NCBI GenBank assembly: GCA_013388735.1
Contig: JACAES010000081.1
Span: 1 to 64,000 of the forward strand
Length of the DNA stretch: 64,000 nt
Source of the DNA: Chloroflexota bacterium
Lineage (GTDB): Bacteria; Chloroflexota; Anaerolineae; Aggregatilineales; Phototrophicaceae
Direction: 5' to 3'
The position numbers and the translations under genes are program-made. Positions 2,138 to 35,107 of the stretch are shown here, piece after piece (position 1 is the first letter of the stretch; each line of letters begins with the position of its first letter). Under the pieces are notes generated by a model, which was not told where the DNA came from, ran no database searches, and saw nothing but the letters and a program-made list of their open reading frames with translations.

Positions 2138-2274
2138 GCCCTCACCCCCGTCCCCTCTCCCGAACATGCCTTCGGCACTGGGAGAGGGGCGAAAATCAGC
2201 GGCGTCGCCGTCGTTTCCCCCTTTTCCTGGCTGCGGCGCAGCGGTCGGCAGAAGGGGGTCAGGGGGATGAGGGC
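2138..2274. repeat. dispersed TIR/hairpin repeat, copy A
   Basis: Starts GCCCTCACCCCCGTCCCCTCTCCC, ends GGGGGTCAGGGGGATGAGGGC (inverted match); internal CCCTCTCCC...GGGAGAGGG hairpin. Confidence 0.8.
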
Positions 2275-27316: not shown

Positions 27317-27376
27317 GCCCTTACCCCCTCGTTCCCCTCTCGCAGCGCGTTCGGGAGAGGGGACGGGAGTGAGGGC
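27317..27376. repeat. dispersed TIR/hairpin repeat, copy C (60-bp near-palindrome)
   Basis: GCCCTTACCCCCTCGTTCCCCTCTCGCAGCGCGTTCGGGAGAGGGGACGGGAGTGAGGGC. Confidence 0.85.
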
Positions 27377-31915: not shown

Positions 31916-34900
31916 CTAAATAGGGCAGCCCACCACAACCCGACAACCCCAAAAGTCGCTCCCGTAGAGCGGGAAGTAGACGTGGTGGCGAGAGGCGGCG
32001 CGGGCATCGCGCTGATTGACGTTCCACGAACCCCCGCGCAACACCCGGAGCGCAAGCGGATCGCGGGCATCGCGCAGGTGTTTGGGCTCGCTAAGACACC
32101 ACTCCCACAGATTGCCCGCCATGTCCAGCGCCCCGCACCCCGCCGCGCCGTGCGGGTACATGCCGACCGCCATTGTCCGGTTCAACCCCGCTTCGCTCGT
32201 ATTGGCGTGTCCTTCCTGCCAACCGCCCCAGGGGTACGCTTGCGCTTCCGCCCCGTTCTGCACCGCCCACTGCCATTCCCATTCGGTCGGCAGCCGGATT
32301 TGCCAGACCTCACACCCGGCGCCAGTCCTGCCCTCACCCCCGGCACCTCTCCCTGGGGAGAGGGGAGAAGCGGCGGCAGCCCGCTGGATATCAATCAGAA
32401 CCTGTTCGAGGTTGTTGAAGACCGCCTCATTTGAGAAGCGGATTACCCGGATGCCGGCATCTTCCAACGCTTGTAGTCTCCACTGATCTTCCTGTTGTTG
32501 ATCCACATGGATGCCGCCATCCAGTTCGACAGCCAGTTTGCAGTCGTGGCAGAAGAAGTCCACTACGAAAGCCGTGTTGGCTACCGGATGCCGGCGGCGG
32601 AACTCAAGATCATTCAGGCGGCGGTCGCGCAAACATTCCCACAACAATTCCTCCGCTGAGGTCTGCCGTTGGCGCAGCTCCCGCGCGATCTGCACCATCA
32701 CCCGCGCCGCCATCTCCCGGTAGCCCTTAAGCCCCTCTCCTCCGGGAGAGGGGTTTGGGGTGAGGGCTTCAAACTGCTCAAACAGCCCCAGCTCCCGGTA
32801 TTTGAAATCCAGCCACCGCGCAAAGGCCACCGCCTGATACCCGTTTACGTTGTCGCGCGGCGCGTTGGCGATTTTCGTGCGCTGCTGCACCATCTCCCGC
32901 CCCTTGTCATTCCTCGGCATTCCTTTCCACCAGCGGTCGTCGGCAAAACCGTCCGGCGCATCCAGGAACGTCTGAAACTGGGCGTAGGTCACGAGATATT
33001 TGGCGATGTAAAAATCCCGGACGTCAAATTCGCCATAGACTTCACCGGCTTGATCTTGAAACTCGACTACTTTACCACCACTACCTGCTACAGGCAGCCA
33101 CAGCATATCCGGCACAGCCCTCACCCCCGGCCCCTCTCCCGAACGCTGCGCTGGGAGCGGGGAGGAAAGTCCCTCTCGCTGGGCAGAGGGATTAAGGCTG
33201 AGGGCAATCACCCCCACGCCGGGGCGGGTATCGCCGATCGCGCTCAACCGGTCGCCGATGTCCCGGCGGCGTTGGTGGCTGGCAGCAGTGGGGGGCAGGG
33301 TTTCCAGTTCGCGCAGCAGGCGCGCCTGCTCCGGTTCGATGAAATCACGCTCCACTTCGTTCAGTTCCGGCTGCAAACGCTCGATCATGGCGTAGACCAG
33401 CTTCAGCCGCTCCGCAGGCCACAGCAGGTAATCAGGGCAGCCTTTTTTATCCCATTCCGCCGCCGCGCCGCGCACCTGCCGCAGCAGGATCAGGTCTTCC
33501 TGCGTTTCGGCGATCCACAGTTTCAGCCGTTCCCAACTGCGGAACAGGGCTTCGTGGATGATTTCAAGATAGGGTTCGCCGCCGTCGAGTCCGGTTTGCA
33601 GCAGGCGGTTGTTGACCAGGGTTTGCACCAGCGCCCGCGCGTCCGAGCCGCCGCCGACAGTTTCCAGCGGTGCGCGGCGGCGGGTCGGCTCGCCGCTGGC
33701 CTCGTCAATGTTGACCAGCGGCAGGAACACGCGGCCCAACTGCGCCTGCACGCCCGCCGGCAGTTTGCTGAAGACCGCCTCGCAGTGCGTGCCAATCGCG
33801 CCCAGCACGCCGCCCATCGCCTCGTAGGCGGCCTGGGTCAGCCGCGCGCCGTCGCGTTCGGCAAACAGGCGCGCCAGCGTAAATTCCAGCAGCGGCAGCA
33901 CCCCGGCCAGCGCCCTGCCGTCGCGCTGGTCGCGCAGCACAAAGATGATCTCCGCCACCAGGCCATCGTCAAACGTGAGCGCCACGTCCGGCAGGCGGGC
34001 GGGGCTTTCGATGGCCTCTCGCAGTTCGGCGATGCTCATCGGCAGCACGGCTTCGCTGCTGGCGTTCACCAGCGCGCCCAGCAGGGGATAGTTGAGCGGA
34101 TGGCCGTAGAAGTCGGCGCGCATGGTCAGCAGCACGGCCAGCGTGTCGCCCGGCTCGGTGGCCGCGTGGGTGATGAGGTCAATAAACTGCTGGCGCTCGG
34201 CCTCGTCGTTGACGAGCGTGAACACCTCTTCAAACTGGTCAATGTACAGCACTGCCTGCCCGCCGGGAAGCTGTTTCGCCAGCCGGTGCAGGTAGCGCCC
34301 GCCGGGGCTGCGCAGGTCGGTTTCGATGGCCGACAGCGGCATTTGCGGCAGTTCGTGTTTGAGCGCGTCCGCCAGCACCTCGACCGGGTGCGCGCCCGGC
34401 ACGATCTTCGGCAGATAAGTCCAGCTCTGGCTGCCGGGGACAGCGCCGCGTTTAAGCGCCGGAATCAGCCCAGCCATCACCAGGCTGGATTTGCCCGCGC
34501 CGCTCGGCCCCAGCACCGCCAGAAAGCGGTCGCCGCCCTCGCTCAGGCGCCGTTCCAGGGCGGCCACCAGCCGGCTGACCGCCGCCGCCCGCCCGAAAAA
34601 GTCGCCCGCGTCGGCCTCGCCAAAAGCGAACAGGCCTTTGTAGGGGTTGCGCGGTTCGACGCCGTGCGCCAGCGCCGGCGTGGTTTCCGCCGGCAGCGCA
34701 TAATCCGGCGATGGCACATGCAGCGCGTCCAGGATTTTCTGCCGGGCGGCCTCGTAATCGCTGCGGGCGTCAATGTACTGAATTTCACCCGTCCCCAGCG
34801 GCACACACTCCAGCCAGTTCTGGCCGTCCGCCCACACCGGGTAAATCGTGCGTCCGTACAGCCGGGCAATCGCAATCTCGTCCCGCACGTAAGGTGACTC

Positions 34901-35107
34901 AAACGAGGCCGGCGAGACAATCCACAGCACCGCCACACAGTCTTCGTCTTTAATGGCCCGGCGAATGGTACGCTCCCAGCTTGTCGTGCCGGGTGACAGC
35001 CCTTCGTGGTCAATCCAGTATTCGACCCCGGCGCGTTTCAGGTCGTCGCGCAGGCGGTCTACGAAAAAGTGATCCTTGCGGGCGTAGGAAATGAAGATGT
35101 AGCTCAT
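31916..35107 (-). CDS. TIR - STAND/AAA NTPase - FGE-sulfatase protein, carrying an in-frame DUF559 endonuclease-like insertion
   Basis: MSYIFISYARKDHFFVDRLRDDLKRAGVEYWIDHEGL (TIR); FLAVLGPSGAGKSSLVMAGLIPAL (P-loop); IRLPTEWEWQWAV...GNLWEW...LRGGSWN (FGE-sulfatase). Confidence 0.92.
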   Translation of the reverse strand: MSYIFISYARKDHFFVDRLRDDLKRAGVEYWIDHEGLSPGTTSWERTIRRAIKDEDCVAVLWIVSPASFESPYVRDEIAIARLYGRTIYPVWADGQNWLECVPLGTGEIQYIDARSDYEAARQKILDALHVPSPDYALPAETTPALAHGVEPRNPYKGLFAFGEADAGDFFGRAAAVSRLVAALERRLSEGGDRFLAVLGPSGAGKSSLVMAGLIPALKRGAVPGSQSWTYLPKIVPGAHPVEVLADALKHELPQMPLSAIETDLRSPGGRYLHRLAKQLPGGQAVLYIDQFEEVFTLVNDEAERQQFIDLITHAATEPGDTLAVLLTMRADFYGHPLNYPLLGALVNASSEAVLPMSIAELREAIESPARLPDVALTFDDGLVAEIIFVLRDQRDGRALAGVLPLLEFTLARLFAERDGARLTQAAYEAMGGVLGAIGTHCEAVFSKLPAGVQAQLGRVFLPLVNIDEASGEPTRRRAPLETVGGGSDARALVQTLVNNRLLQTGLDGGEPYLEIIHEALFRSWERLKLWIAETQEDLILLRQVRGAAAEWDKKGCPDYLLWPAERLKLVYAMIERLQPELNEVERDFIEPEQARLLRELETLPPTAASHQRRRDIGDRLSAIGDTRPGVGVIALSLNPSAQREGLSSPLPAQRSGEGPGVRAVPDMLWLPVAGSGGKVVEFQDQAGEVYGEFDVRDFYIAKYLVTYAQFQTFLDAPDGFADDRWWKGMPRNDKGREMVQQRTKIANAPRDNVNGYQAVAFARWLDFKYRELGLFEQFEALTPNPSPGGEGLKGYREMAARVMVQIARELRQRQTSAEELLWECLRDRRLNDLEFRRRHPVANTAFVVDFFCHDCKLAVELDGGIHVDQQQEDQWRLQALEDAGIRVIRFSNEAVFNNLEQVLIDIQRAAAASPLSPGRGAGGEGRTGAGCEVWQIRLPTEWEWQWAVQNGAEAQAYPWGGWQEGHANTSEAGLNRTMAVGMYPHGAAGCGALDMAGNLWEWCLSEPKHLRDARDPLALRVLRGGSWNVNQRDARAASRHHVYFPLYGSDFWGCRVVVGCPI
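32330..32767 (-). mobile_element. 438-bp TIR-hairpin-flanked element encoding a DUF559 (Vsr-like PD-(D/E)XK) domain, copy D
   Basis: Ends GCCCTCACCCCCGGCACCTCTCCCTGGGGAGAGGGG / CCCCTCTCCTCCGGGAGAGGGGTTTGGGGTGAGGGC (inverted); internal RELRQRQTSAEELLWECLRDRRLNDLEFRRRHPVANTAFVVDFFCHDCKLAVELDGGIHVDQQQEDQWRLQALEDAGIRVIRF. Confidence 0.8.
33117..33205. repeat. dispersed TIR/hairpin repeat, copy E, in frame inside the TIR-STAND gene
   Basis: GCCCTCACCCCCGGCCCCTCTCCCGAACGCTGCGCTGGGAGCGGGG...GGCTGAGGGC; encodes ALSLNPSAQREGLSSPLPAQRSGEGPGVR. Confidence 0.8.

Follow-up and report, generated by a model that had tools for sequence, protein, structure and literature searches.

Results

A DUF559 element between inverted repeats in a TIR-STAND gene

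In the window, the 64,000-nucleotide stretch of DNA analysed in this study, a 1,063-amino-acid ORF on the reverse strand (31916..35107, −) encodes a defence-like TIR_2-nSTAND1-FGE-sulfatase-like host protein, in which Pfam search located TIR_2 at residues 4-126, nSTAND1 at residues 155-556 and DUF559 at residues 805-910 (E 4e-30). FGE-sulfatase was matched as two stretches with DUF559 in between, and the ORF stays open across the whole DUF559 block. This block is an element of 438 bp or 146 codons (32330..32767, −) located in frame in an FGE loop. In the direction of the gene, it begins with the terminal inverted repeat (TIR) GCCCTCACCCC (32757..32767, −) and ends with the TIR GGGGTGAGGGC (32330..32340, −), which is GCCCTCACCCC on the forward strand; the TIR-to-TIR span is 438 bp. 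The 11-mer GCCCTCACCCC occurs five times in the window as compared to 0.02 copies expected. Each end of the element is adjoined by a subterminal hairpin, CCCCTCTCC..GGAGAGGGG on the 5′ side (32732..32753, −) and CCTCTCCCTGGGGAGAGG on the 3′ side (32346..32363, −).

The core of the element is a PD-(D/E)XK/Vsr-like nuclease domain, DUF559 (PF04480; 32378..32695, −), which scored 104 bits in the window protein against a profile cut-off of 20.6 and matched PDB 3hrl (E 7e-16). Its D...ExDG..H motif is intact, reading VVDFF...AVELDGGIH. Profile search with Pfam/NCBIfam found no intein family or Hint splicing motif in the window protein. Within 32330-32767, DUF559 was the sole Pfam domain, with no DDE, HUH, serine or tyrosine transposase, and Rfam search of the host gene region gave no match. 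A sequence-only reading of this DNA had proposed that a TIR-bounded 438-bp block within FGE, free of intein motifs, codes in frame for an apparently intact DUF559 domain, and the TIR coordinates, the ORF and the profile searches confirmed these points. That reading had overlooked a solo palindromic element in the same gene (33117..33205, −), which is also in frame; from GCCCTCACCCC to GGCTGAGGGC it measures 89 bp.

In an AlphaFold model of FGE plus DUF559 based on a 27-row alignment, DUF559 had a pLDDT of about 90 and the repeat-encoded linkers were disordered (below 50), while the C-terminal FGE half, with a pLDDT of about 30, was not modelled. The model thus predicts, confidently as far as DUF559 is concerned, a separate domain joined via disordered repeat-encoded linkers.

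Solo repeats in the source genome

The source genome contains about 62 ends of the repeat (control pattern, 0) and only two DUF559 domains. The second DUF559 (L033, C177:1-1521) is encoded in frame within a restriction protein of type ISP, after which four or more palindrome units follow in tandem. Examples of solo copies in the window are a canonical two-hairpin repeat of the same superfamily (2138..2265, +; 128 bp), which no long ORF spans, and a short one-hairpin copy (27317..27376, +; 60 bp) outside long spanning ORFs. The canonical solo repeats differ from the ends of the window element in length and spacer. Since the solo copies of this genome are mostly intergenic and out of frame, two-hairpin REPIN-like units of 128-137 bp, often with stops, the idea that being in frame is inherent to every repeat was rejected, and the earlier view that an open frame is what lets the element travel through coding sequence was not supported as an intrinsic trait; in-frame residence looks like survivorship. 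No free RAYT was found in the source genome. Its only Y1_Tnp-like match (L240, G000:C139:41784-42119; E 6e-11) falls within a long acidic ORF of regulatory type.

Three states of the FGE loop

A single-protein search of genome contigs with the host protein found only two relatives. Among the homologues, the FGE loop was found empty (L174, L175, L177 and L180), with a solo repeat (L197, and L223, where it reads '..LPPLTPDPSPTQAGRGESSPSPQGEGLSVRSNDWQIRLPTEWEWQ') or filled with DUF559 (the window, G016, and also G021, in which the assembly is broken at the repeat). The uninterrupted version that the sequence-only reading had called for was thereby found at the same loop, and the possibility that all orthologues carry the domain there with no terminal repeats was contradicted by the empty and solo-repeat alleles. 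The orthologue in G016 has the solo repeat at residues 634-663 in common with the window gene (33117-33205) and a third one in the STAND part; the orthologue in G014 has none of them. The filled alleles at this site were too few for a tree test. In the draft assembly of G021, the start of C22 and the end of C124 (L031/L032) fall at the repeat adjoining the element, suggesting that inserts of this type are probably under-counted in draft genomes.

As compared to the closest uninterrupted FGE loops, the net gain was about 441-444 nt, with replacement of some local sequence ('RTGAGCEV' before WQIRLP). The figure of 438 bp therefore gives the TIR-to-TIR length, from which the exact inserted unit may differ. 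Neither a precise empty site among the FGE-loop homologues nor a close empty allele was found, and no target duplication was visible by eye in the window or in L266; the sequence-only reading had suggested a test for both features. No usable base-exact empty site was found on Sinorhizobium, Azospirillum and Picosynechococcus replicons, owing to a neighbouring IS or a missing allelic flank.

Association of the repeats with DUF559 genes

A side of a gene was counted as positive when at least three repeat motifs were present within 200 bp; part of the locus sample from the class was picked for long ORFs, not for repeats. Non-intein DUF559 genes had repeats on at least one side in 30 of 33 cases and on both sides in 21 of 33, as compared to 6% of background tiles. 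Even in repeat-poor genomes, 13 of 14 DUF559 genes were repeat-flanked. RAYT/Y1 genes from repeat-containing genomes were flanked by the DUF559-type repeat in 1/21 cases on either side and 0/21 on both, and the RAYT genes there bear different palindromes of their own. For intein-borne DUF559, the corresponding values were 1/8 and 0/8.

Across 199 genomes, with kinship ignored, repeat-rich genomes more often held a strong DUF559 match (OR 9.8, p = 1e-9), and the link between repeat richness and Y1_Tnp was weaker (OR 3.9, p = 0.004). A Y1_Tnp gene was also present in 37 of the 42 repeat-rich genomes, the other five giving no Y1 match. No strong DUF559 match was found in twelve repeat-rich genomes, which implies either that solo repeats persist or spread without DUF559 or that these assemblies are incomplete.

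DUF559 in the linker of methionine synthase

Methionine synthase (MetH) was searched in 61 genomes from a different family within the class. The MetH linker was found empty, with a solo NPSP/GEG-type repeat (L221 and L213), with other repeats, or with a repeat-DUF559-repeat insert, and every resolved allele was in frame. Two further in-frame repeat families, with peptides QVDTYTGTQVDT.. and GLVSAQPVSTPGAGTSPAPT.., were observed in this linker in other genomes (L204, L207, L220, L219 and L206). Repeats of several families thus land in the MetH linker.

DUF559 carriers were scattered on the MetH tree of 46 genomes, requiring 11 changes for n = 12 as compared to a mean of 10.8 with shuffled labels. 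Among 51 DUF559 domains, the 12 from the MetH linker formed one clade (support 98/92), and in an AU test the insert alignment rejected the host topology (p = 5.4e-5). These analyses demonstrated, at the sequence level, one nuclease lineage at one MetH site in scattered hosts, independent of the flanking gene. The dN/dS of the MetH-linker DUF559 was about 0.12, with dS near saturation, indicating that purifying selection acts on the domain. The single clade, the scattered hosts and the AU rejection together form a pattern of homing or repeated allelic transfer; the patchy distribution could also stem from homologous recombination without nuclease action. The earlier proposal of a homing-like mobile element was thus upheld with respect to spread at the MetH site, but that the nuclease drives this movement is what we infer.

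Repeat-flanked DUF559 in other phyla

Twenty-one DUF559 loci on named replicons of Alphaproteobacteria, Deinococcus and cyanobacteria had the repeat motif on one side in 17 cases and on both sides in 11 (background, 5.6%). A motif-free inverted-repeat test was positive at 14 of the 21 loci and at 0 of 210 random positions. The sequence-only reading had expected the repeats to recur around other DUF559 genes rather than to be absent there, and recurrence was observed both in the same class and in other phyla. TIRs in Pseudanabaena, Deinococcus and Sinorhizobium were 45-124 bp long, with inverted repeats of about 61 bp at the Deinococcus psychrotolerans locus, and the ~130-bp flanking repeat of Azospirillum lipoferum 4B was found again on the other replicons. 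In Sinorhizobium meliloti Ak57 (L274), near-perfect inverted repeats, about 124 bp long, enclose a DUF559 gene, and ISRm16 cuts into the right end. WP_281009668.1 of Pseudanabaena galeata pPg_02 (L273; about 1621 amino acids), annotated as a 'DUF559 domain-containing protein', is a restriction methylase into which a repeat-DUF559-repeat unit with 45-bp TIRs is inserted in frame. On plasmids of the cultured cyanobacterium Synechocystis sp. B12 (L269, CP101716; L270, CP101712), BREX pglX and a DUF1156 methylase gene are split by repeat-flanked DUF559 elements, with annotation as separate hypothetical proteins.

Host genes and intein-borne DUF559

Hosts of the embedded elements were N6/N4 methylases, MmeI/Eco57I-like, type ISP, DUF1156 and NB-ARC-like proteins, MetH and the STAND protein of the window, most being DNA methyltransferases. 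At eight loci of the same class (L097-L101 and L103-L105), the endonuclease of an intein or Hint-type insert is a DUF559 domain; Pfam/NCBIfam search matched seven of these loci (L097-L101, L103 and L105) to intein families (PF14890 and/or TIGR01443), and six of the seven are in N6_N4 methylase genes. These intein DUF559s belong to clades other than those of the FGE site and the MetH linker. A literature search found no description of DUF559 as an intein endonuclease. In the sampled class, DUF559 is thus either spliced out as an intein endonuclease without repeats or present as a repeat-flanked non-splicing insert.

Discussion

Sequence comparison demonstrated the architecture of the insert, its recurrence, empty, solo and filled states at two sites, the independence of insert and host, and purifying selection. 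On this basis, the insert is probably one copy of a mobile element that is widespread and in which REP-like palindromic ends enclose the gene for a DUF559 nuclease; this element would be homing-like and non-splicing. We infer that DUF559 does the cutting, as well as its target and the movement of solo repeats in trans. The mechanism was hypothesised as described below. The nick or cut made by DUF559 would lie in or close to related palindromes, or else at a site that it prefers in the uninterrupted allele, and repair would then copy the element into the cut site in a homing-like manner. An element landing in a coding gene would persist only in tolerant loops and in frame, and host and nuclease would be produced as one chimeric protein without splicing. 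Solo repeats may be left by loss of the nuclease gene or by palindromes moving in trans. Further, we tentatively entertain the possibility that these elements are autonomous and pan-bacterial, with DUF559 as the sole mobility enzyme and a conserved palindrome (about CCTCACCCC..CCTCTCCC) as its substrate, moving REPIN-like solo repeats in trans and colonising protein loops in frame without splicing, with a preference for DNA methyltransferase and defence genes.

The patterns at the FGE and MetH sites might instead reflect a passive cassette, in which scattered palindromes are recombination sites, DUF559 is shuffled by homologous recombination and the nuclease performs Vsr-like mismatch repair or restriction. 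Repeats are tandemly expanded beside DUF559 at L095, L089, L205 and L231 and on source-genome C177, which shows recombination between repeats, and the Caulobacter DUF559 protein VsrA has been argued to be a mismatch-repair endonuclease (PMC12907096). This explanation nevertheless appears unlikely in view of the single site-specific clade of MetH-linker DUF559s, the repeats accompanying DUF559 in repeat-poor genomes too (13/14) and the homing-type context of intein-borne DUF559. It is very unlikely that a Y1 (RAYT) transposase mobilises the repeats as ordinary REPs, with DUF559 as a passenger: none of the 21 RAYT genes was flanked on both sides by the DUF559-type repeat, their own palindromes being different, the only Y1 match of the source genome is inside a long regulatory-type protein, and five repeat-rich genomes have no Y1 match, even though the source-genome repeats resemble REPINs, with two hairpins in each unit of 128-137 bp, and Y1_Tnp occurs in 37/42 repeat-rich genomes.

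The window host and many others are defence or restriction-modification genes, and purifying selection acts on the DUF559 of the MetH linker, as would be expected if it had been recruited by domain accretion as a functional nuclease effector of a defence protein. However, DUF559 interrupts a loop of FGE, is bounded by a palindrome on either side and has empty and solo alleles at that position, and a housekeeping enzyme, methionine synthase, shows this arrangement too, making such recruitment highly improbable. A degenerate intein that has lost its splicing domain, a reading already disfavoured, can hardly be upheld: true inteins of this class do have DUF559 as their endonuclease, but the window protein carries no Hint or intein motif, and the intein DUF559s have no repeats and lie in clades other than the FGE-site and MetH-linker ones.

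The homing-like element with palindromic ends, which we prefer, resembles several known systems in part. Rickettsia palindromic elements (RPEs) are short palindromic repeats inserted in frame in coding genes, giving chimeric proteins without splicing (PMC10969869). The in-frame palindromic repeats in the window gene (33117-33205) and in the FGE and MetH loops are alike in this respect. RPEs are, however, about 150 bp long, whereas here a DUF559 gene lies between the palindromes and most source-genome solo copies are intergenic; to our knowledge, no RPE encodes a nuclease. Homing endonuclease genes can also be inserted in frame without splicing, as is LAGLIDADG in the rps3 gene of fungal mitochondria. 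The present element shares with them, at the MetH site, patchiness at a fixed site, an insert tree discordant with the host and a nuclease under selection and, at the FGE site, occupied and unoccupied alleles; it differs in its nuclease fold, its palindromic TIR-like ends and the solo repeats at the same sites.

As in REPIN/RAYT systems (Bertels and Rainey 2011, PMC3116915), there are REP doublets with hairpins and many solo copies for few copies of one associated single-domain nuclease, and the source-genome units, with two inverted palindromes each, are of high copy number and mostly extragenic. Unlike in those systems, the enzyme is a PD-(D/E)XK DUF559 instead of an HUH/Y1 RAYT; the RAYTs of these genomes have other palindromes on their flanks, and the adjacency test found the repeat beside hardly any of them (1/21 either side, 0/21 both). 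DUF559 inteins share the nuclease family and the host gene type (DNA methyltransferases), but have Hint/intein motifs and no flanking repeats, the reverse of the window element. Insertion sequences have TIRs in common with the window element and with 14/21 named loci in the motif-free test, but the window element has no DDE, HUH, serine or tyrosine transposase. The same domain with an intact PD-(D/E)XK-type motif is found in Vsr/DUF559 proteins, which have been described as free-standing repair-type nucleases (PDB 3hrl; VsrA, PMC12907096); a literature search found no mobile-element role for them. Nor did a search of non-subscription literature find a published description linking DUF559 to palindromes or mobile elements. 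The element fails a defining feature of each of inteins, classical insertion sequences and RAYT systems and appears to work like a homing element with REP-like ends, and there is a fair chance that it is a class of its own.

If this is true, DUF559, a very common family of unknown function, would gain a role in driving a mobile element, a palindrome family found in several phyla would be explained, and a selfish nuclease would be able to inhabit host proteins without splicing. DUF559 apparently has two strategies, being either part of an intein or a palindrome-bounded in-frame insert, and the survival of selfish genes in coding sequence therefore becomes directly testable, for example in methionine synthase.
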